A stretch of DNA of 64,000 nt from Candidatus Poribacteria bacterium (GTDB lineage: Bacteria > Poribacteria > WGA-4E > WGA-3G), in NCBI GenBank assembly GCA_026706025.1, contig JAPOZO010000059.1, forward strand, positions 62,001-126,000. The letters run 5' to 3'. The position numbers and the translations under genes are program-made. Below the pieces are notes generated by a model. The model searched no databases, was not told the DNA's origin, and worked only from the letters and a program-made list of their open reading frames with translations. Numbering within the stretch: position 1 is the stretch's first letter; each line of letters starts with the position of its first letter. Shown in pieces: positions 7,607 to 62,401 of this stretch.

Positions 7607-8587
7607 ATGTCTGAACACGCTGAACAAAAATACGAAGAATTTCGCGAGACCTTCCTAAAAATACAACAAGAAGTATCCAAACAAATCGTCGGGCAAAAAG
7701 AGATTATCGAAGGGGTTCTGATATGTCTCATGACGGGCGGACATGCGCTGTTAGAAGGTGTCCCCGGTTTAGGGAAAACCCTGCTCATTCGGACGTTGCA
7801 TGAGGTATTAGATCTCAAGTTTGCCCGAATTCAGTTCACACCAGACTTGATGCCAGCAGACATCATCGGCACTACAGTTGTTGCTGAGGATGAAGACGGG
7901 CGGAAGTTCTTTGAATTTCAACAAGGTCCCGTATTTGCCAACCTTATTCTCGCCGACGAAATCAACCGTGCGACCCCCAAGACCCAGTCAGCTTTATTAG
8001 AAGCGATGCAGGAAAAATCCGTGACTGTTGCCGGACAGCAGCGGGAACTCAAATTGCCTTTCTTTGTAATGGCGACGCAAAACCCGTTGGAGATGGAAGG
8101 CACCTATCCGCTTCCCGAAGCACAACTCGATCGCTTCTTTTTTAAACTCAAGGTTGAATACCCAAGTCTTGACGAACTCGACCTTGTTATGGAACGCACC
8201 ACGAGACGCGAAATGCCGTCCGTGGATAAAGTCTGTGATGGCGAGCAGATTAATGCATTGGAACAGATCGTCCGTGATATCCTCATCGCTGAAGACGTAC
8301 GTAGGTACGCTTTGCGAATTGTGCTCGGTACACACCCCGAAACAGAAGACGCGCCGGAATTGACGAAGAAATATGTTCGCTACGGTTCGAGTCCGCGTGG
8401 TGCGCAAGCGTTAATTCTTGGCGGAAAAGTTCGGGCAATTCTTGATGGTAGATACAATGTCGCCCGTGAGGATATTCAAGCCATCGCCCTACCGAGTCTG
8501 CGGCATCGTCTCATCCTTAGCTTTGAAGGCGAGGCAGAAGGGATTGATCCAGACGACATCATCCGACATCTGCTGGAAGAAATTTAA
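7607..8587 (+). CDS. MoxR-family AAA+ ATPase
   Basis: 326 residues, typical MoxR length. Walker A is GVPGLGKT (residues 51-58); Walker B lies in LILADEINRATPKTQSALLE (about 111-130); a sensor-1 region is FVMATQNPLEMEGTYPLPEA and the arginine-finger segment follows in QLDRFFFKL. MoxR ATPases act as chaperone-like remodelling machines that work with vWA-domain proteins, here encoded just downstream (DUF58 at 8711, BatA-like at 9780, double-vWA at 14832). Start ATG at 7607 follows AGGAGC with proper spacing. Cytoplasmic. The family is certain; the client protein is not known. Confidence 0.95.
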   Translation: MSEHAEQKYEEFRETFLKIQQEVSKQIVGQKEIIEGVLICLMTGGHALLEGVPGLGKTLLIRTLHEVLDLKFARIQFTPDLMPADIIGTTVVAEDEDGRKFFEFQQGPVFANLILADEINRATPKTQSALLEAMQEKSVTVAGQQRELKLPFFVMATQNPLEMEGTYPLPEAQLDRFFFKLKVEYPSLDELDLVMERTTRREMPSVDKVCDGEQINALEQIVRDILIAEDVRRYALRIVLGTHPETEDAPELTKKYVRYGSSPRGAQALILGGKVRAILDGRYNVAREDIQAIALPSLRHRLILSFEGEAEGIDPDDIIRHLLEEI

Positions 8588-8710
8588 TATCTGGAATATC
8601 AGTTTCCAGTTTCCAGTTAAGAGGGAAACGTTCCTTTAGAGGCTTTCCTTCTGGTGACGGGTTACTGGTAACTTCTTTACTTCTTCGCGAAAACCCAATA
8701 GTTAAAAAAG

Positions 8711-9598
8711 ATGAACGATACACAGTCTGCCTTTGACAGCGAATTCCTGAAAAAACTTGAATATCTTTATATTGTCTCGAAAAAGATTTTTGCCGGACGC
8801 ATCAAGGCGGAGCGTCGCAGTACACGCCGCGGTGTGAGTGTCGAATTCGCCGACTACCGTAACTATACCGCAGGTGACGATTTCCGCTACATCGACTGGA
8901 ACGCTTTCGCACGCTTGGATGAACTCCTGCTAAAACTCTACGAAGAACGGGAAGACCTGCACATCTACTTCCTCGTCGATGCCAGTCAGTCCATGACCTA
9001 CGGCGAGCTGCCGAAACTGATTTATGCGAAACGAGTCGCCGCTGCGCTCGCCTATATCGGCTTATCCAACCTTGACCGGATTAGTATTACGACCTTCAAC
9101 AACACAGGCGCGAATCGGCTCCCAACAGAGCGTGGCAAAGGTAAAATTTTTACCGTCCTCGACTTTCTTGATCAGATTAACGGTAGTGGCGAAACAGATT
9201 TAGAGAGCGCATTCCACAACTTTGTCCACACAACCAAACGTCGCGGTCTCGTCGTGCTAATTTCGGATCTCTTTGATCCGAGTGGGTTTACCAACGGACT
9301 GAATGTGTTGAAATTTCAGAAGCATGAACTTTTCGTGATCCATATCATCGATCAGAAAGAAGTCGCTCCTGATCTACTTGGTGATTACCATCTTGTGGAT
9401 GTTGAAACAAATCAGCTGCGTCAAGTCACGATCAACGAAAATCATCTCAAGCGGTATCAGGCACTGTTCCAAAAATATTGTGATGACATGGATTTATACT
9501 GCACGCAACGCGAAATCAGCCTTGTACGGACGACGACAGAATCCCCTTTCGAGGAACTTATTTTACGCATTTTCAGGATGGGTGGTTTTGTTTCTTAA
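8711..9598 (+). CDS. DUF58 domain protein (vWA-like)
   Basis: 295 residues with the hallmark DUF58 core RRGVSVEFADYRNYTAGDDF followed by RYIDWNAFAR and then a degenerate von Willebrand A fold with a MIDAS-type DxSxS motif in FLVDASQSMTYGE. Family members are soluble partners of MoxR ATPases and are usually encoded directly after them, as here. No signal peptide or membrane segment. The upstream 120-base spacer contains a short partial heptad repeat. The TTCTTCGCG...AAAAAAGATG context gives no strong ribosome site, but the N-terminal sequence matches family starts. Confidence 0.93.
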   Translation: MNDTQSAFDSEFLKKLEYLYIVSKKIFAGRIKAERRSTRRGVSVEFADYRNYTAGDDFRYIDWNAFARLDELLLKLYEEREDLHIYFLVDASQSMTYGELPKLIYAKRVAAALAYIGLSNLDRISITTFNNTGANRLPTERGKGKIFTVLDFLDQINGSGETDLESAFHNFVHTTKRRGLVVLISDLFDPSGFTNGLNVLKFQKHELFVIHIIDQKEVAPDLLGDYHLVDVETNQLRQVTINENHLKRYQALFQKYCDDMDLYCTQREISLVRTTTESPFEELILRIFRMGGFVS

Positions 9599-25417: not shown

Positions 25418-27442
25418 TCACGATGGTAGTGCAAAATAACCGATGCCTGTAAACAGCCCGACGATCATCCATAGTGCTACCATCACATATTCACCGAAAA
25501 TCAAGCCGAAGGCGATCGGTCGAATCTTCCGATATGTCGATGCACCGCCAAATTTTAGTGCCATGTATTTAATGAACCACCCAATCAGAATAGACGACCA
25601 GAGGTGGAATGGCGGATACGTCGCACCGAGAAGATAACCGATCGGATGCAAGGACCACCAGACAAAGTTCTGTCGCATCCAGAGCATAAAGCCAGTAAAT
25701 CCGGCACCAGCGATCATACTGTAGACCTCGTCCCACTTCGTCTCAATAGGAAATTGGATGAGACTGTTCATCCGTTGAAAATAGTTACGTGGTGCGACGA
25801 CGAAGGACCAACTCTGTAAAAATAGCGCGCCCTTGCCGTAAATCAGCGTCAATGAGGCATAAACGGAAATAAGAATTGCGACAACAATTGCGATGCCCAA
25901 AATCGGTACAACGCGTCGGCGTGCGAGTTTCACCTCATCCGCTGCTTTGAAACTGTGCAGGAAGTTCGGCATCATAAACTCACCCCAATCGCGCAGGAAG
26001 GTGCGTTGGAAACTCAGGATTGCGAGGCTCTTATGCCCTAATGCGTTGGAACCCAAAGTAATATCAATATATTCTGAGGGGAAAAAAGGAGCCTGGACCA
26101 GTAACAACCCGCCGTTAACGACCATCCAAGAGAGGACAATAGAGGTGATAAAGATAGAGAGCAACGTCACGACCGCAACCCATGTCGTTATGCCCGCCAC
26201 AGCTAAAAATATCACTAAGGTGACGAACCCGAAAAGAAAGCCGAGCAGTGCGATACGATACGAAACAGGTTCGTTGGAGTCGTCTATCGGTTGCCGCGCC
26301 ACAGTAGCGGAGGTCGTCCTTGCATGCCCGAGACCGAAGGTTTTCCTAAAGATTGTTGCAATATGTTCACGCCCTATCCAGAAAACAGCGGGAACAAAGA
26401 CGAGATACCCACCCATCACTTGACGGCTACAGCTAATCCAGGGACCGATGTTCAGTCCCATCGCATTCATGATGATATATTGGAGTTTGAAAAAGAGGTA
26501 GAAGAACCAGAGACTGAATGAGACCTCAAGCGTCAGTAAAGAGGCGATCCCGATAACAGAAAAATAGATGACGAACCGCATCGCGGGCCACCATCCGAGT
26601 GTATGCCACGGTTTTTCGGTAAAGACGGTGTAGATATTATAAATCAGTGGAATTTCTGGCACCTTTGGGAAATGTGCGTGCAATCCGTTGATCAGGTGCA
26701 ACACCACAGGCAATGCCATCCCTGCCCAAAGGAGTCTGCTTTTGAAAAAGGTGTTGAGAAGCGTACCGCGTGCCGGTTCCGCAGCGAGTTGTATCGGAAT
26801 CTGAATTAGCGGAAACGAAAACCGTTCACGTTCTACCCACTGCTTTCGTAGGATTGCCGAGAGGCAGAGCGTTGTGAAATAGAAGACGAGGACGAAAAGC
26901 CCCCAGATGAGCAACGGCTTGAGCCAGATCATCCACGGGACACTTTCACCCGGAGAAATACCTTCATAAAAGTCCGTCACAGCCCGCGTATCCGTAACAA
27001 CAAGCCACTCAGGGATATGTGGGTGTAGCGTTTCCGACCAATCGTTTTCCGTCGTTGCGAAGTATCGCACTGCCACAAGGGACGGCAGCAGAAATTGCAG
27101 CAACCCCATTGACGGAATGCCTACTGCCACGATCAACATCATCCAAATAACAGTCAATTCCGGTGCGGAGAAGGCAAAACGCCCGCGCCGCATGAACTTT
27201 CGCAACGGCAGATTGACAAGAAACACCAGAATGAGAAGTCCGAAGATTGAACCGACTGGGAGATGATTGCCTGCAATTTTGGTGTTTTGTAGGAAATAGT
27301 TGTTGTAGGGTGTGATTGCACACAATGCACCTACTAAGAGTAACCCTACAAGAATAGCAGACAATCGAATTTTTAACGATTGGGTTTTCGCTCCGATTTT
27401 TCCGTTGTCAAAATCGGGTTTCTGAAGCGTATTTAGGGACAT
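25418..27442 (-). CDS. DUF6785-type polytopic membrane protein (copy 1)
   Basis: 674 residues with about 14 hydrophobic segments and conserved points shared with the gene at 44202: FATTENDWSETLHPHIPEW, ILRKQWVERERFSFPLIQIP, TYPPFHLWSSILIGWFIKYM. This is the DUF6785/DUF6784 type known from Poribacteria and planctomycetes, with an overall look of an oligopeptide-transporter-like carrier; a transport role is inferred. Residues 8-25 (KPDFDNGKIGAKTQSLK) are encoded by an interspersed hairpin repeat that is non-coding elsewhere, so the true start may be the TTG at 27364. No ribosome site is seen before the ATG at 27442. The sulfatase gene lies upstream on the same strand. Confidence 0.82.
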   Translation of the reverse strand: MSLNTLQKPDFDNGKIGAKTQSLKIRLSAILVGLLLVGALCAITPYNNYFLQNTKIAGNHLPVGSIFGLLILVFLVNLPLRKFMRRGRFAFSAPELTVIWMMLIVAVGIPSMGLLQFLLPSLVAVRYFATTENDWSETLHPHIPEWLVVTDTRAVTDFYEGISPGESVPWMIWLKPLLIWGLFVLVFYFTTLCLSAILRKQWVERERFSFPLIQIPIQLAAEPARGTLLNTFFKSRLLWAGMALPVVLHLINGLHAHFPKVPEIPLIYNIYTVFTEKPWHTLGWWPAMRFVIYFSVIGIASLLTLEVSFSLWFFYLFFKLQYIIMNAMGLNIGPWISCSRQVMGGYLVFVPAVFWIGREHIATIFRKTFGLGHARTTSATVARQPIDDSNEPVSYRIALLGFLFGFVTLVIFLAVAGITTWVAVVTLLSIFITSIVLSWMVVNGGLLLVQAPFFPSEYIDITLGSNALGHKSLAILSFQRTFLRDWGEFMMPNFLHSFKAADEVKLARRRVVPILGIAIVVAILISVYASLTLIYGKGALFLQSWSFVVAPRNYFQRMNSLIQFPIETKWDEVYSMIAGAGFTGFMLWMRQNFVWWSLHPIGYLLGATYPPFHLWSSILIGWFIKYMALKFGGASTYRKIRPIAFGLIFGEYVMVALWMIVGLFTGIGYFALPS
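27371..27420 (-). ncRNA. Conserved-loop hairpin element at the DUF6785 start
   Basis: In transcript sense the element reads AAACCCGATTTT, loop GACAACGGA, AAAATCGGAGC, then AAAACCCAATCGTTAAAA. Stem arms are at 27393-27400 and 27410-27417, loop 27401-27409. The same 8-bp/9-nt shape with an identical loop occurs before bioB and, with a different but still complementary stem, before the gene at 53909-54877. It overlaps the annotated N-terminus. Whether it acts as RNA or is a DNA repeat is not known. Confidence 0.5.
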
Positions 27443-27445
27443 TTT

Positions 27446-27535
27446 TATCAGTTATCAGTTTCAGTTGTCAGTTGTCGGTTAAGAGGAGTGTCGTTTAAGA
27501 AAACCCTCTTGTTACTGATAACTGAAAACTATCCT
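27446..27535. repeat. Heptad-repeat palindromic element
   Basis: ATCAGTTATCAGTTTCAGTT on the left, GGTTAAGAGG and CCCTCTTGTTAC in the middle, and ACTGATAACTGAAAACTA on the right form a large imperfect palindrome immediately upstream of the membrane protein gene. Confidence 0.65.
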
Positions 27536-27573: not shown

Positions 27574-29034
27574 TCAGCCTTCTTCTCTCACTGAAGGATG
27601 ATAGAGACAAGTTTCTGCATCAACGACACGACCGTCAGGTAATGTATACTGATTCGGTGTGCCTCTGCTCCAAGGTTCCTTGAAATCTCTGCTTCGCGTC
27701 CTATCAGACACCTTCTGCTCGGCAACAGATTCCCATGAAAATCCTCCCATGAGTTGTTCATGCAAGGATGCCTCTAACTCCCTATATGCCGCTTGTCCTG
27801 TGAGGTTTTCAAATTCATCTGGGTCTGTCTCCAAATCGAAGAGAATGGATTCATCTTCAGGGAAGGCGACATACTTATAGCGAGGGGTTCGGAGCATACG
27901 CATCGGTCCCGTGGTCTGGTTTGCCCAGTATTCGGTGATAGCAGTGTCGCGCCAACTGTCAGTGTCACCGGACATAAGATTCGTTAGGTCATCGCCATCC
28001 AAACCTTTAGGAATAGGAATGCCTGCTCTCGCACATAATGTTGGGAAGAGATCGTTTAGCTCGACAGGAGCTGTTACACGTGCGCCGTGTGATTGCTGCA
28101 GCTGCCTGTCCGATATGATTAGCGGGACTCGCGCCGCGGCTTCGTAGTAACTGGATTTCCACCACTGCCCGTGTTCGCCTGCCATCTCGCCGTGGTCTGT
28201 GGTATAGACGATGATGGTATTATCTAAAAATCCGTCACGTTCCAGAAGTGTGAGCAGATCTCCGACAGTCTCATCCAAGAATTCACAACAGGCGTAATAA
28301 GCGGCTCGTGCTTTTCGGGCTTCTTCGGGTGGAATCTCCTCCGTATTGAAATTATCTCTCAAGCCCTTCGCGAAGGGATGTGTCTGCTCCAAGTGTCCTT
28401 CGGGAACGTTGGGCATGTCCACATTATCGGGCCAATATTTATCAAGAAGTCGTTTAGGTGCCGTGAGAGGGAAATGTGGACGGCTGTAACTTGCGAGCAG
28501 GAACCATGGTTGTTCTGATGGTTGGGACCTTAAGTATTCAAGTGTCTCTTCGTTAATAACTCGCTCTTGCAGAAGACTGGTCGGGATTTCTGTGACACCT
28601 GCGAGTCGCGTTCGTTGTCGTATGCGAGATGGCGGATCCAGTGGATCTGTTTGGTGTCCGGCATATCCGCGCAGGTCGCCGTAGGGACGGGACTGGAAGC
28701 CGTTATTCTGCTCTTTACCACCGAAGTGCATCTTCCCGACAAGCGCGGTTGCGTAGCCGTGCTGTGCGAAATGTGCGGGCATTGTGAGATGTTCTGGGAA
28801 CAAGATGGATCCGTTATCCCATGCTGAGCATCGATGTGCGTATTGTCCAGTTAGCATACACATCCGGGAGGGCGTGCAGAGCGGGACTTGGCAGTACGCG
28901 CCCTCAAAATAGGTGCCAGACGCTGCGAGTCGGTCAAGATTTGGTGTCTGTACAATGGAATTACCTTCACACCCAATAGCGTGCGGACTGTGTTCATCAC
29001 TCATCAAAAATAGAATATTCGGTTTTTGAGCCAT
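27574..29034 (-). CDS. Type I sulfatase
   Basis: 486 residues, alkaline-phosphatase-superfamily fold. The sulfatase signature CTPSRMCMLTG starts at Cys53, which formylglycine-generating enzyme would convert to the catalytic formylglycine. Metal ligands are seen in FLMSDEHS near the start and in YTTDHGEMAGEHGQWWK. It cleaves sulfate esters, likely from a polysaccharide or other sulfated compound. No signal peptide is seen, so the enzyme is probably cytoplasmic or the true start is elsewhere; AAGGAGAC about 12 bases upstream supports the given ATG. The neighbouring GHL10 hydrolase and enolase-superfamily genes suit a polysaccharide-use role. Confidence 0.93.
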   Translation of the reverse strand: MAQKPNILFLMSDEHSPHAIGCEGNSIVQTPNLDRLAASGTYFEGAYCQVPLCTPSRMCMLTGQYAHRCSAWDNGSILFPEHLTMPAHFAQHGYATALVGKMHFGGKEQNNGFQSRPYGDLRGYAGHQTDPLDPPSRIRQRTRLAGVTEIPTSLLQERVINEETLEYLRSQPSEQPWFLLASYSRPHFPLTAPKRLLDKYWPDNVDMPNVPEGHLEQTHPFAKGLRDNFNTEEIPPEEARKARAAYYACCEFLDETVGDLLTLLERDGFLDNTIIVYTTDHGEMAGEHGQWWKSSYYEAAARVPLIISDRQLQQSHGARVTAPVELNDLFPTLCARAGIPIPKGLDGDDLTNLMSGDTDSWRDTAITEYWANQTTGPMRMLRTPRYKYVAFPEDESILFDLETDPDEFENLTGQAAYRELEASLHEQLMGGFSWESVAEQKVSDRTRSRDFKEPWSRGTPNQYTLPDGRVVDAETCLYHPSVREEG

Positions 29035-29964
29035 TAATTAAAAGTCTCCTTTAATTTTTTTTAGGACAAGGGCCTCCTCCAACCTGCCTTTAGAACATCT
29101 TTAGGCGCGGGGTACGGCAGACGATCTTAAGTCTGTTTTATTGGAATTCATAGAATCTGCTTTTTCTTATCGGGAATACGGTAATAAGGATATGCCACTA
29201 TCTCTCACCGGAACATTCTTAAACTCAATTTAGTTTACCCGATTCATTGAGAATATGCAAGCAGAATCTTGGAGAAATACAGAACCGTTCAGCTTTAAGA
29301 AATTATAGAGTTTCTCGTCCTTCTTTTAGGATCCGGTGGGGTTGCAAACCGCACCATAGGGTCAATTGAGCGATTTTTCACGACTTTTTAGAATAGTTAT
29401 TATAAACATGCCGCCCTTACAGGGCTTAGGAGACAGAGCAGACGCATTTCTATAAACATACCGTCCCTACGGGACTGAAGAAGTTTTTGAAATCTTCAAG
29501 GTTTTCGCGTAGTATCCGGTTCGGTTAGGAAACCGAACCTACCGGGCCTGGGTCCGAGACGGTTATTTTTTCTAAAATTGACACCTATGGTGGGGTTGCA
29601 AACCGCACCATAGGTGTCAATTGAGTCCCGTAGGTTGGGTTGAACGGCGTTAAGAAAGCAGATATTGGTATGCCACAATACCGTCAAATCCAACTTATTG
29701 TCATATACACCCAAAAACGTAGTGAAACCCAACTTGAGCCTTCAGGTGCCCGAAAACTGCAAAGGCGTTGGGTTTCTCTCGGTTTTCTGCTTGGCGTGCC
29801 ATCTCTGGTGCCGGTTGCGTCTTGTATTAGTTTCAGCGTTTTGGAGGTATCCGTTCAACCTAAGGGAAATCCGCAGAAATACGCAGCAATACGCAGAAAC
29901 ACCCAAGCAATACGCAGAAATACCCAGGCAAAAACACCCCAAGCAAAAACACCTACAGGACTTA
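29035..29964. repeat. Repeat-rich gene-free stretch
   Basis: About 930 bases without a credible gene. It contains a left end of the CAGAGCCATTCAGTTTT element near 29281 (CAGAACCGTTCAGCTTT, no matching right end found), REP-like palindromes at 29328, 29514 and 29585, the ATAAACATACC hairpin pair at 29402 and 29452, and a run of AATACGCAGAAACACCC-type units at 29870-29960. The ORFs readable through it are repeat translations. Confidence 0.6.
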
Positions 29965-33456: not shown

Positions 33457-34062
33457 AATTTTTCTCCTCTTACACAATGTTTGTTTTCCGATTTCTTCTG
33501 TATGCCATAAAATAAAACGAAATATCTACATTTTTCGTTACCAAATTATGCTATCTGGGTAGCACCTATTTGTGGGTTATAGCAGCCCAGTTATCAACTG
33601 TTGGAGATAAAGTTCTCCAGAATCGCATTGTGCTGATTTGGGAGACCAACACCAGCAAGGCGGAATGTGTATAGAAAGTGGTGTAAAATATCTCCTTGAA
33701 CCCCAGCGGAGTGACCTCGGTGGAAGCAGGAGGATAAAAAATAAACCTCTTTATACACCTATTGAAGAAATCCGTAGAAATACGCGGAAACACCCAAGCA
33801 AAACACCTATCAAAGACACCTATCAATCCGCAGAAATACCCAAGCAAAACACCTATGGGAGACTTCAATTTTTATTTTCTAACTCACGTAATTTTTATTA
33901 AATTTATTTGATTTTTCCCTAAAAATACCATATAATCTAAATTAGATATAATCTTTATAATTTAATTATTAAAATAGTAATAAAAATTGACTAATTATAA
34001 CCTAAGTTGCTGGGTTGTCCGTCTATCGGATAGCCTTTGTTTCCAAATAAGGAGAACAACGT
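33457..34062. repeat. Spacer with ACACCCAAGCAAAACACC repeats and an AT-rich tract
   Basis: 33770-33866 carries two units of GAAATACGCGGAAACACCCA / CAAAACACCTAT type, related to 29870-29960 and to a fragment near 40566. 33885-33995 is strongly AT-rich and precedes the metallopeptidase gene; it may hold its promoter, but no clear box pair was found. No gene recognised. Confidence 0.5.
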
Positions 34063-39231: not shown

Positions 39232-40329
39232 TTAAGATTCCATGCGCGGTCGAAGCACTTTTAACTCTTTGAGAAGTACATCTCTTTTCTCTATGTCGTT
39301 CTGATTGAGTTGTTCAACGTCTTCAGCGTTTGTTTTGACCGTAAAGCCGGCATCCTTAATCATCTCCATTGTCCGCGATGCTGTCGAACCTTCCGCATTT
39401 AGGTAGCCATCAATAAACATTGAATTTGCTGGGTAGAGTGCCATTACCTCCATACTTCGTAGGTGGTGTTCTCTACCTGCAGCGACCCTTATTTCTGCGC
39501 GTGGATTCAAGAATCGGTACAGACACAATACTCGGAGACAATAATCCGGGGTTAAAGTAGTAGGCACACTCCGTTGTGCCGTAACGGATTCCGACAACTG
39601 CGTGCCGGATATCGGCAGGAAAAAGTTAACCGGCAGTGAAGCAACCTCAAACTGACGGAGTGCCTTGGCGACCTTAATCAAATCGTCCGTTCCCTCACCC
39701 ATCCCAACGATTACACCTGAACAACAGGCAAGTCCAGCCGTTTGTGCGGCTTGTAGTGTCTCCATCCGATCCTGATAAGTGTGCGTACTACAGATATTCG
39801 GATAGTGGGTTTCGGAAGTATTCAGATTATGGTTCAACCTATCCAATCCTGCTGTTTTCAGGATATGCGCGGATTCCACGTCAATCAGTCCAGCAGAGAG
39901 ACACACCTCAATCGGATAGCGTGCCTTTACAGCCTGGATGAGTTCTGCGAGGTGTGATACGCGTTTTGGCGAGGGTCCGCGTCCACTCATTACAATGCAA
40001 TAACGATACGCGCCAGATTCATAAGCGCGTTTGGCTTCTTCCAGAATCTCGGCATCGGGTTTTAAGGGGTAAGTCTCGATATCTGTCGTTGCAGAATTCG
40101 CCTGTGCGCAATAACCACAATCCTCTGGACAGTAACCGTTTTGTGCATTGTTGAGAATATGGAGTTGCACCTCGTTCCGAAAATAGGTTTTGCGAACTTG
40201 ATATGCAGCATCCAATAGCGGGAGCAATTCTGTTTCCGGTGCTGTTAGAAGTTTCTCACAAGTAGCATCGGAAAGTAATTCGCCACTGAGGCTGGTGGTT
40301 GTTAATTCGTTATAAAATGTTGTTTCCAT
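39232..40329 (-). CDS. bioB: Biotin synthase
   Basis: 365 residues. Radical-SAM cluster cysteines in CPEDCGYC at residues 67, 71 and 74; family signature NAQNGYCPEDCGYCAQ; LDRLNHNLNTSE and PVNFFLPISGTQL match BioB. It inserts sulfur into dethiobiotin to make biotin, using two Fe-S clusters and S-adenosylmethionine. Cytoplasmic. No other biotin gene lies beside it. Directly upstream of the ATG stand three tandem units of the conserved-loop hairpin repeat, the last complete, so expression may depend on that element. Confidence 0.95.
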   Translation of the reverse strand: METTFYNELTTTSLSGELLSDATCEKLLTAPETELLPLLDAAYQVRKTYFRNEVQLHILNNAQNGYCPEDCGYCAQANSATTDIETYPLKPDAEILEEAKRAYESGAYRYCIVMSGRGPSPKRVSHLAELIQAVKARYPIEVCLSAGLIDVESAHILKTAGLDRLNHNLNTSETHYPNICSTHTYQDRMETLQAAQTAGLACCSGVIVGMGEGTDDLIKVAKALRQFEVASLPVNFFLPISGTQLSESVTAQRSVPTTLTPDYCLRVLCLYRFLNPRAEIRVAAGREHHLRSMEVMALYPANSMFIDGYLNAEGSTASRTMEMIKDAGFTVKTNAEDVEQLNQNDIEKRDVLLKELKVLRPRMES

Positions 40330-40331
40330 AC

Positions 40332-40460
40332 TTTTAATGATTAAGTTTCTGCTCCGATTTTTCCGTATTTTTAACGATTGGGTTTCTGCTCCGATTTTTC
40401 CGTATTTTTAATGATTGAGTTTCTGCTCCGATTTTTCCGTTGTCAAAATCGGGTTTCCGA
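40332..40460 (-). ncRNA. Triplicated conserved-loop hairpin element upstream of bioB
   Basis: Three tandem units of 36-37 bases (40332-40367, 40368-40404, 40405-40440) of the form TTTTTAACGATTGGGTTTCT + GCTCCGATTTTTCCGTA on the + strand. Only the outermost unit continues into GTTGTCAAAATCGGG and can form the 8-bp stem (40428-40435 with 40445-40452) with loop TCCGTTGTC. The first unit ends two bases before the bioB ATG. Confidence 0.5.
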
Positions 40461-53908: not shown

Positions 53909-54877
53909 TTATCCTAAGTGGACCGGTAGACCTGTTTCAAGGGATTCGTTGGCGGCGATGGATAAAATAGCGGTTTTCGCGGCATCGGCATAGGGGGATC
54001 GGATTGCGCTGCCATCTCCTATACGAACAGCCTCAATAAAGGTGCTATCCATATCAATTGTGCAATTGTTCTGCGGGTTCCACGTGGTTTTCTCATCGGC
54101 GGTAGAGAGTACAAGCGCACGACGGAGATGATATTCAAGGGAACCGTCCTCACAGAAAATGTCTAATCCAGAACGACTCATCCCATTCGTTGTAAAGCAG
54201 GCGGAGAACATGATACCAAAAACACCGCTCTCAAATTGCAAAGAGACAGCAGACGCTTCTTCAATATCGTAATCGGTATCAGGAATCAGATCATAGCGTG
54301 CGACGGCATAGACAGTTTTGACTTCGCCGAAGAGGTATCTCGCCATATCAAATTCGTGTGTCGTCTGTTCCATGAGCTGCCCACCGGATTTTGCCTTCTC
54401 TCGCCACCAACCACCGGGCATGCCGCCCATCCAGTAGCCCATGAAGAATCCGACGCGTCGGGAAGCGAGGAGTTCCTGCGCTTTGTCGATAATATCAAGA
54501 TAACGTTCCTGATACCCTGTAGCAGTGATGATGCCTTTCTCTTCTATCACAGCTGCGATCTCCATTGCATCGTTTGTATCCATGTGTACAGGTTTTTCGA
54601 CAAACATCGCCAGTCCAGCGTCAATAACAGCCCGTTCAGGTGCCCCGTGTGCGAAAGGTGGAATAGAGATATAGACGGCATCCAATTCTTCGCGTGCGAG
54701 CATCTCGTTATAGTCTGCGTATGCTTTACCACCGTACTGCGTGACAGCCTGTTCCGCTTTTTCAACAACAATATCACAGAAGGCGACGAATTGTGAGCCG
54801 CCGATCTCGGTTAATTCACGGAGGTGGCGGTTCATGTTACCACCTGTGCCGATAAAGCCTAATCTAACATCTGACAT
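53909..54877 (-). CDS. Gfo/Idh/MocA family oxidoreductase
   Basis: 322 residues. Rossmann start LGFIGTGGNMNRHLRELTEI, then the family signature AMFVEKPVHMDTNDAMEIA containing the catalytic-site EKP, and HEFDMARYLFGEVKTVYAVA in the C-terminal domain. NAD(P)-dependent oxidation or reduction of a sugar or inositol-like substrate in the cytoplasm. The upstream region carries the conserved-loop hairpin with a covaried stem. The gene stands between CopA and nuoN and is unlikely to belong to complex I. Confidence 0.9.
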   Translation of the reverse strand: MSDVRLGFIGTGGNMNRHLRELTEIGGSQFVAFCDIVVEKAEQAVTQYGGKAYADYNEMLAREELDAVYISIPPFAHGAPERAVIDAGLAMFVEKPVHMDTNDAMEIAAVIEEKGIITATGYQERYLDIIDKAQELLASRRVGFFMGYWMGGMPGGWWREKAKSGGQLMEQTTHEFDMARYLFGEVKTVYAVARYDLIPDTDYDIEEASAVSLQFESGVFGIMFSACFTTNGMSRSGLDIFCEDGSLEYHLRRALVLSTADEKTTWNPQNNCTIDMDSTFIEAVRIGDGSAIRSPYADAAKTAILSIAANESLETGLPVHLG

Positions 54878-54926
54878 TTTTTTAACTATGGCCCTTGTTC
54901 GTTTCTCTCCGTTGTCGAGAAACGGG
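54878..54926 (-). ncRNA. Conserved-loop hairpin element, covaried stem
   Basis: On the + strand CGTTTCTC (54900-54907), loop TCCGTTGTC (54908-54916), GAGAAACG (54917-54924). Same 8-bp stem length and identical 9-nt loop as at 27393 and 40428, but a different stem sequence. In transcript sense it is followed by 22 bases ending GTTAAAAAA and then the ATG. Confidence 0.5.
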
Positions 54927-54981
54927 TAGTTGATTAATTTTTCGGAATTACCAATTGTAATAATTAAACCTCATAAAGTGA

Positions 54982-60313: not shown

Positions 60314-62212
60314 TTAAGCGAAAAATAGGTAATATGCGAGAAATATCACAATTCCGAGAACCATCGAAACAATATAGACTTGGACGAGACCGGTTTGGAG
60401 TCGCCGCAACAATCCACCGAGGAACCGGATAATAGCAGCCACACCGTTGACAATTCCGTCAATAATGCCGTTATCCACCAGTTTCCATAACAGAAAATGG
60501 GAGCCGTTTTTAACGGGTTGCACGATGAGTGCGTTGTATACCTCATCAATATAGTACTTGTTCGCGAGCAGTTTATGTAATGCCCCGGTAGGTTCATCGG
60601 ACGGGACTCGTTTGCTATAACGCGTCCATGCGAAGGCAATACCCGCCAAACCGACAACCGATGAAATTACCATAAACAAAACGACATTGCCTGATGCTTC
60701 ACCGTGTGCTTCCGAGGCAAACCCTTCAACCGATTTTGTGAAGTGGTGGAACCAACTTTCATGTCCACCCCAACCTAATAATAAGCCGATCAGGGCAGAG
60801 GGGATCGCCAGAATCGCTAACGGCACCCACATAACAGATGGTGATTCGTGCAGATGTGAAGCAACTTCGGGTTCAACGCGAGATTCGCCATAAAACGTCA
60901 CGAAGATGAGACGGAACATATAAAAGGCTGTCAGGAATGCTGTGACTAACCCGATCCCGTAAATTAACGGGGAACTTCCCCACGCGCTGTGTAGGATTTC
61001 GTCTTTGCTCCAGAAACCACTCAGAAACGGAAACCCGGCAATGGCAAGGGCACCCACTAAAAAGGTCCAGTGCGTAATCGGCATCTTCGATTTTAATCCG
61101 CCCATCTTCCGCATATCCAACTCATTCGCCATAGCATGCATCACACTACCGGCGGTTAGGAACATCAGTCCCTTAAAGAAGGCGTGGGTTACCAAATGGA
61201 AGATTCCAGAAGCATAAGCCCCGACACCAACACCGAGGAACATGTATCCGAGTTGGCTGACAGTAGAATACGCAAGGATGCGTTTGATGTCGTTCTGTGT
61301 GAGTGCAATTGTAGCGGCAAAGAGTGCCGTTAAAACGCCGATCCATGCGACGATTTCCCCCGTATGGGCAATGTTATAAAGGACAGCGGAACGCGCTATC
61401 ATATACACACCAGCTGTTACCATCGTCGCAGCGTGAATCAAGGCACTGACAGGTGTGGGACCCTCCATCGCATCGGGGAGCCATACATAGAGCGGGATTT
61501 GTGCCGATTTACCTATTGCCCCAACAAAGAGTAGCAATGTCGCCACCACGAGGGTGCTGGCACCAAAAACCTTCTGAAAATTATCTGCCTCGGCGGCATC
61601 AAATATAGTCCCAAAATCAAGGGTTCCGAACGCCGCAAATAAGGTGAACATTCCAAGCAGGAAACCGAAATCGCCAATTCGGTTCACGATGAATGCCTTT
61701 TTCCCAGCATCCGTCGCCGACTGTTTGTCATACCAGAACCCGATCAACAGATAAGAGCAGAGCCCAACGCCTTCCCACCCGACAAACATCATCAGGTAGT
61801 TGTTACCGAGGACGAGGATGAGCATTGCGAAAACAAACAGGTTCAGGTAGGCAAAATAGCGTGTATAGCCTTCATCGCCGTGCATGTAGCCGATCGAATA
61901 GACGTGGATGAGGAAACCGACACCTGTAATAACCAACAACATTACTGCTGTTAGGGCATCCACGCGGAATCCGATATTGAAAGCGAACCCTTCGCCTGCA
62001 ATCCATTCATATAATGTTTCATCAAGCGGGGCAGCACCGCCGTTCAAACTGGTAAAGGCGATAATTGAACAGACTAAGGAGACCAGCACCGCAAGCGCGC
62101 CTATCGATCCGCTGAGTTTCTCGTTACCTTTTAGCCATTTTCCGAATAACCCGTTAATCAGAAACCCAACAAGGGGGGCAACTAACAGGACAACAATTAA
62201 TTCTTTCGACAT
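60314..62212 (-). CDS. nuoL: NADH-quinone oxidoreductase subunit L
   Basis: Start set at ATG 62212 (MSKELIVVLLVAPLVGFLIN); a TTG at 62263 would add 17 residues read from a repeat. The product of 632 residues has about 16 membrane helices: YTRYFAYLNLFVFAMLILVL, MFVGWEGVGLCSYLLIGFWY, AQIPLYVWLPDAMEGPTPVS and NDIKRILAYSTVSQLGYMFL. It is the largest antiporter-like subunit and carries the lateral helix at its end. It pumps protons in the inner membrane. A 187-base gap and a damaged hairpin element separate it from nuoK. Confidence 0.96.
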   Translation of the reverse strand: MSKELIVVLLVAPLVGFLINGLFGKWLKGNEKLSGSIGALAVLVSLVCSIIAFTSLNGGAAPLDETLYEWIAGEGFAFNIGFRVDALTAVMLLVITGVGFLIHVYSIGYMHGDEGYTRYFAYLNLFVFAMLILVLGNNYLMMFVGWEGVGLCSYLLIGFWYDKQSATDAGKKAFIVNRIGDFGFLLGMFTLFAAFGTLDFGTIFDAAEADNFQKVFGASTLVVATLLLFVGAIGKSAQIPLYVWLPDAMEGPTPVSALIHAATMVTAGVYMIARSAVLYNIAHTGEIVAWIGVLTALFAATIALTQNDIKRILAYSTVSQLGYMFLGVGVGAYASGIFHLVTHAFFKGLMFLTAGSVMHAMANELDMRKMGGLKSKMPITHWTFLVGALAIAGFPFLSGFWSKDEILHSAWGSSPLIYGIGLVTAFLTAFYMFRLIFVTFYGESRVEPEVASHLHESPSVMWVPLAILAIPSALIGLLLGWGGHESWFHHFTKSVEGFASEAHGEASGNVVLFMVISSVVGLAGIAFAWTRYSKRVPSDEPTGALHKLLANKYYIDEVYNALIVQPVKNGSHFLLWKLVDNGIIDGIVNGVAAIIRFLGGLLRRLQTGLVQVYIVSMVLGIVIFLAYYLFFA

Positions 62213-62300
62213 AATTTTAACGATTGAGTTTTCGCTCCCTTTTGGCGTAAGCTTGCAAGCCAAAACTTGCTGTTAAAAGCTCCGTTGTCAAAATCGGGTT
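62213..62300 (-). other. Damaged conserved-loop hairpin element upstream of nuoL
   Basis: TTTTAACGATTGAGTTTTCG abuts the nuoL ATG and TCCGTTGTCAAAATCGGG is at 62281-62298, but between them 43 bases including TTTTGGC/GCCAAAA replace the left stem arm, so the hairpin cannot form as elsewhere. Confidence 0.45.
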
Positions 62301-62401
62301 TTTGCTCCATTTCAACAACGTTAGTTACGATTAAATTGTTCTAAAGAACAAGTGAATAGGAACGGTCGTTTTACATATAGTGACCAAATCAAAAATCCTT
62401 G

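Follow-up and report, generated by a model that had tools for sequence, protein, structure and literature searches.

The analysed window comprises 64,000 nucleotides of a Candidatus Poribacteria genome (6.27 Mb in 103 contigs) and encodes, next to a sulfatase, a membrane protein with DUF6785 and DUF6784 domains (Table 1). The protein is matched by PF20580 and by PF20581, the match to the latter beginning at residue 27. The AlphaFold2 model, computed with a 14-sequence alignment, has a mean pLDDT of 80.9; its first predicted helix starts at residue 27, residues 1-21 have pLDDT values below 50, and the N-terminal tail is predicted to be disordered. The best PDB match of this model is 7wst, the Yellow stripe 1 transporter of barley (Foldseek E 7e-8, TM 0.63/0.69), and the protein is predicted to be a transporter with a Yellow-stripe-like fold. 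About 30 further full or partial relatives of the DUF6785/DUF6784 protein are encoded in the source genome.

Residues 8-24 of the protein (KPDFDNGKIGAKTQSLK) are encoded by a copy of a hairpin repeat. An earlier note on this DNA had described the N-terminus as a direct translation of a repeat that is non-coding before bioB and nuoL. Sequence and reading frame are as claimed, the extent being residues 8-24 and not 8-25, and the same repeat was found before bioB and nuoL, where it ends directly at the ATG. A diverged copy and a weak partial copy are located in front of further start codons of the window (Table 1).

Table 1. Genes, candidate start codons and repeats of the window (positions are those of the window).
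Feature	Position	Strand	Details
DUF6785/DUF6784 membrane protein gene	25418..27442	-	674 aa; ATG start at 27442
TTG codon, residue 27, candidate start	27362..27364	-	TTG in 2/57 distinct orthologue sequences
Hairpin repeat copy within the DUF6785 coding sequence	27366..27422	-	R1 match of 82.4 bits; stem CCGATTTT/AAAATCGG
ATG start of the DUF6785 gene	27440..27442	-	Kept in 11/12 repeat-bearing orthologues
AACTGA-type repeats (second repeat family)	27448..27474	-	End 5 nt upstream of the DUF6785 ATG
Upstream sulfatase gene	27574..29034	-	Its end is one boundary of the exchanged spacer
Three partly overlapping repeat copies	40327..40460	-	End at the bioB ATG (40329)
Diverged repeat copy	54875..54929	-	36.1 bits; ends at ATG 54877, the start codon of an oxidoreductase gene (GFO/IDH/MocA type)
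Repeat copy with insert in the hairpin	62210..62302	-	Ends at the nuoL ATG (62212)
Weak partial repeat copy	8668..8712	+	26.5 bits, E 0.125; GCGAAAACCCAATAGTTAAAAAAG directly before ATG 8711; outside the copy counts

The DUF6785 copy is a member of a dispersed hairpin element family that is present in all searched genomes of this Poribacteria genus. The element is about 57 nt long, with an approximate 5' limit and a 3' end formed by TTAAAAA plus one base. A 23-nt stretch of it has three matches in the window at up to three mismatches, compared to a mean of 0.00 in 100 shuffles, and 45 BLAST matches at E≤10, including the DUF6785 copy, were obtained in the whole genome. The covariance model R1, built from twenty copies, yielded 85 matches at E≤1 in the own genome. 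After 12 of these, namely the 11 weakest and one partial match of 26 nt, and C61 were left out, 72 copies including that of DUF6785 were read, several of which are weak or overlap in tandem. At E≤1e-4 R1 detects the element in all 27 genomes of the genus, in 2 of 16 genomes of the family's other genera and in 0 of 15 others; at E≤0.001, between 2 and 55 matches per genome were obtained for 24 genomes of the genus. The hairpin covaries: in 62 distinct copies from sister species 38 double compensatory cells were counted vs. 9.1 in shuffles, and 99.3% of the stem cells are paired in an alignment that was itself fitted to R1. The exchanges, A-U to U-A and U-A to G-C, likewise appear in an ungapped count of 57 out of 60 copies. 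The DUF6785 copy folded alone is only little more stable than its shuffles (z -1.59). At several loci (L022, L031, L035-L037 and L189) the loop of the element carries a nested hairpin (GACCAACAACTCG...CGAGTTGTTGATC and variants). Within the approximate limits of the element, terminal inverted repeats as in MITEs are absent; the paired arms are internal, and the ends GAAACCC and TTAAAAA are not complementary.

Where its 3' end abuts a start codon, the element lies in the 5' leader position of the gene. An ATG that opens a frame of at least 60 codons stands precisely at model positions 55-57 in 28 of the 71 own copies (DUF6785 left out); every other offset is seen at most twice, and for 28 further copies the 40 nt examined contain no such ATG. 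At random positions in the same loci the rate is 0.0039. In sister species, 36 of 60 copies, which were taken from the top of the listed matches of 10 genomes and are not a random sample, have the ATG at the same place and two more have it one base further. R1 holds partial ATG columns and thereby favours ATG-adjacent matches; using the ATG-less DUF6785 copy as BLAST query, 12 of 29 other loci are still at offset 0. Among the 28 own genes behind the element, 20 were scanned for domain or family matches, and the best matches include PriA, MutL, PotA-like, PafA-like, NuoL, DnaJ-like, MtaB-like, MurC, RimK-type and PurN, next to PhyH, enolase-superfamily, methyltransferase, acetyltransferase, ABC and radical-SAM proteins; the name BioB rests on radical-SAM and BATS domains and on the earlier note. 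As identified, these genes are unrelated in function. As the family models begin within residues 1-7 for MutL, MurC, PurN, RimK, DnaJ, NuoL and PafA, the ATGs adjoining the element look like real starts.

A covarying hairpin at a fixed spacing to the start codon is also what would be found if the family were a conserved cis-regulatory RNA, i.e., the leader of a regulon and not a spreading repeat. The presence at bioB in 12 of 21 genomes, in eight over most of the element and in four with the 3' half only, points in the same direction. We regard this as unlikely, as the scanned genes have no common function, the number of matches varies from genome to genome as given above, many copies are situated away from start codons, and a search of Rfam with 12 of the 30 loci with the element returned no match at E≤1. 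Furthermore, the element is absent at the same gene in most sisters: it is present at priA in 3 of 23, at nuoL in 2 of 23 and at the pafA-like gene in 4 of 22 genomes, these counts, like that at bioB, depending on alignment-score cut-offs chosen by us. The element is treated here as a spreading repeat, with a putative leader function and a putative mechanism of mobility; at genes other than DUF6785 it would act in translation initiation.

At the 21 empty nuoL sites, AAGGATAAAA(T/A)-ATG or a similar sequence is frequent, in which an AAGG resembling a Shine-Dalgarno motif lies near the ATG; the two filled ones instead have the end of the element in this place. No target-site duplication was seen in this comparison of filled and empty sites, but the sequence upstream of the element also differs. 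At priA, 9 of 23 leaders end in AACTAATT-ATG, among them the leader of the most similar relative (98% identity over 100 residues). An A-tract in front of the ATG was considered as insertion target; it fits nuoL and DUF6785 and is not claimed, as priA of that relative has no A-tract. Across 24 genomes, 39 matches were obtained with the pattern CTGANAACTAATNATG vs. one with the reversed control. A third recurring leader, approximately CGCAAGG-TAAATTAAAAA-ATG, occurs in front of various genes from species to species (L225 and L234 at bioB; L252, L253 and L261 at nuoL; L363, L376 and L377 at the pafA-like gene).

Apart from the DUF6785 copy, three of the 72 own copies (C65:6582, C76:73548 and C99:19194) lie in sense open frames of at least 150 codons, the criterion being an ATG at least 60 nt upstream of the copy or an open end, and one of the 72 (C63:189283) is antisense in an open frame. 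For C65:6582, in the pafA-like gene, the family start comes after the element. Among the 72 own copies DUF6785 is the sole one with translation supported by orthologues; other coding cases are possible.

Orthologues of the DUF6785 gene were found at 75 loci, all from Candidatus or uncultured Poribacteria, which reduce to 57 distinct bodies, five of them incomplete; the 75 do not include L092-L097, which are distant, L217 and L218, in which the 5' end is missing, and L219 and L220. Class A, with the repeat, contains 12 of the 57 bodies. Class B (15/57, with L078 and L080 assigned to it by hand from the remaining group) encompasses repeat-free sisters with a tail encoded from TTG-GCT-GCT-AAT-ACT or near variants, which amounts to about 21 residues if the common TTG is the start and is unrelated to the repeat-encoded one. 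A third type, class C, comprises 6 of the 57, and the remaining 24 include many bodies opening with MPRRPKIRF or similar; in outgroup orthologues, tails of eight residues such as MPRRPKIR are frequent. The unrelated tails of the repeat-free orthologues meet the body at the same KIR motif, which precedes residue 27 in 53 of 57 orthologues, including repeat-free ones that start upstream of it. In the comparison of N-terminal residues that the earlier note had proposed as a check, those of repeat-free homologues differ from those of repeat-bearing ones, KIR excepted. The note had further offered two explanations, a true start downstream at the TTG or a protein lengthened by the repeat. The second holds insofar as the repeat is very probably coding, while simple lengthening does not describe the relatives, which bear other tails. 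As the class B tail has about 21 residues and that of many outgroup orthologues eight, the repeat-bearing tail, with 26 residues in the gene of the window and 24-43 among the 11 orthologues with the ATG, replaced another tail.

The ATG of class A is found in the same sequence context in 11 of the 12 distinct repeat-bearing orthologues. Its distances to residue 27 in these 11 are 72, 78, 87, 105 and 129 nt, all multiples of three, and no stop codon is present in between. The extra inserts that L081 and L189 carry are both in frame, the one in L189 being a nested hairpin that resembles those of non-coding copies. As a comparison, 9 of the 71 other copies of the own genome are both in register and free of stop codons in that frame. 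The twelfth class A orthologue, L077, does not have the ATG region; an in-frame GTG adjoins the sulfatase stop and the frame is open from this GTG. In L070, L074 and L189 there is no in-frame stop within 200 nt upstream, so the start may be located further upstream. The ATG at 27442 has no Shine-Dalgarno motif. Based on the conserved context and frame, it appears to be the start in use.

The TTG at residue 27 as true start in the source species, with the repeat as a 5' untranslated leader as in front of other genes, would agree with the frequent end of the element family directly before start codons, with the beginning of the Pfam match at this very residue and with the position of the TTG 4 nt past TTAAAAAT. 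The orthologues argue strongly against it: TTG at residue 27 is limited to the own genome and L069, the orthologue most similar to the gene of the window, i.e., to 2 of 57 distinct sequences, compared to TTT or TTC in 50. Moreover, the widespread KIR would be lost, the protein would open at the first residue of the predicted helix 1, and in the 11 repeat-bearing orthologues with the ATG the frame stays open as far back as that codon. We consider the TTG start improbable and reject this part of the earlier note. ATT and ATC are very rare as start codons, and a start at the ATT or ATC within AAA-AT(T/C)-CG at the 3' end of the repeat, in place of ATG and TTG, is hardly credible. An isoleucine codon ATT/ATC does occur at that place in most orthologues, close to the ATG position of other copies, but in many outgroup orthologues an ATG lies six codons further upstream, and such a start would not account for the conserved ATG and frame.

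As the element lies within the open frame behind the ATG, we infer that it is translated in DUF6785. The best explanation overall, which we hold to be likely, is that it forms most of the disordered tail of 26 residues before the first membrane helix. Four pairs of class A orthologues, drawn from 8 of the 12, differ within the part encoded by the repeat (codons 2-19) by 2 synonymous and 11 nonsynonymous changes; in these pairs no selection on the repeat-encoded residues and no third-position excess were seen. To judge from the sequences, the tail is probably translated with its sequence serving as filler, which would be tolerated and not selected. The element would have been inserted at the 5' end of the DUF6785 coding sequence, in the open frame behind the ATG. 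It is suggestive only that the ATG itself derived from a weaker 5' arm of the element: in a test of this arm with L213, 10 of 70 upstream flanks reach at least the 99th percentile of random flanks, and 0 to 4 of 70 do so with the other four test sequences.

A gene-body tree was calculated for 35 of the 57 rows with 200 bootstrap trees. Class A requires six changes on it vs. 10.2 when shuffled, and this clustering indicates that its distribution is partly due to plain descent. As they are related, the 11 or 12 class A orthologues are not independent events. The starred branches force at least four class A changes, and class A forms one clade in 0% of the bootstrap trees. A pair of loci illustrates how the allele may have moved: L213, with the repeat, and L185, without it, share 92-100% identity in 60-nt bins on both flanks, with 98% and 97% in the bins adjoining the two edges of the swapped spacer, while the spacer from the sulfatase end to KIR is unrelated, i.e., the swap is sharply bounded. 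This pattern fits an exchange of a short 5' cassette between species. The arrival of the element would be an insertion and the allele would later have been exchanged as such a cassette. Repeated independent insertion at one site could likewise produce a class A scattered over the gene tree, and it would suit an element that occurs at many loci and is missing at 21 of 23 nuoL sites. Separate class A branches have in common a detail around the ATG (ATGTTGCTAAATACGCGTCA and near variants) outside the core, which speaks against independent insertions, unless that part also belongs to the element, in which case it is no counterargument. We judge repeated insertion to be rather unlikely and favour allele exchange. 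In horizontal regulatory transfer, alternative upstream regions are switched; the DUF6785 alleles resemble this in having unrelated alternative upstream regions between conserved neighbours, scattered over the tree, and differ from it in that the start codon and N-terminal codons are part of what is exchanged.

Two described systems are close in single features. Rickettsia palindromic elements are described as small in-frame protein-coding repeats of 105-150 nt from Rickettsia and others (PMC2229807, PMC10969869). In analogy, the Poribacteria element is a short hairpin-forming repeat in many copies, both intergenic and in frame inside a gene, the DUF6785 copy appearing as an in-frame copy in a conserved protein-coding gene. 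In contrast to the Rickettsia elements as described in these reports, it is about 57 nt in length, belongs to another phylum, is often situated at start codons and has one supported coding case; the likeness drawn here is one of description. In Beggiatoaceae, TAACTGA direct repeats were described to end at start codons and apparently to replace Shine-Dalgarno sequences (MacGregor 2015, PMC4679880). The Poribacteria element is similar to these repeats, as presented there, in its sense orientation directly upstream of starts, ending within a few nt of start codons where it apparently takes the place of Shine-Dalgarno sequences, in front of functionally unrelated genes and with a patchy distribution between species. 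It differs from these tandem heptamers as a structured unit without TAACTGA: no TAACTGA heptamer pair is found in the 57-nt element, and the window has 17 TAACTGA and no TAACTGATAACTGA. The AACTGA-type repeats constitute a second family in Poribacteria, beside the hairpin element.

Among the literature matches listed for Poribacteria repeats, palindromic elements, and start-codon and leader repeats, the element is unreported, and the combination of a covarying hairpin that ends at start codons and is translated in one gene is absent. Poribacteria do not occur in PMC4679880, and a search of PMC3909097, on Poribacteria single-cell genomes, for a few terms gave no matches. As a broader reading, put forward tentatively and with more doubt than confidence, the genus may carry several unrelated short-repeat families that are portable translation-initiation leaders ending at start codons, spread among unrelated housekeeping genes, replace the ancestral Shine-Dalgarno leader and are swapped between species as sharply bounded cassettes. 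The DUF6785 tail would then be a leader that landed a few codons inside a gene and became translated.

At the DUF6785 locus, alleles with the repeat, alleles without it and swapped ones can be compared among sister species, which offers a case of a repeat turned protein sequence. Of wider interest is a structured repeat family whose end recurs at the start codons of housekeeping genes; if the leader function is true, translation initiation in this phylum would be rewired by repeats, one gene at a time. In annotating such genomes, one has to reckon with repeats that may shift the called starts. In the window, AACTGA-type repeats are situated closely upstream of the gene starts at 7607, 9780, 27442, 48606 and 56415 and recall the Beggiatoaceae TAACTGA repeats. 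Short AGAAATACGCA/AACACCC direct repeats are found at 29865-29944, just downstream of the 3' end of a GHL10 gene (29965), and again at 33766-33850.
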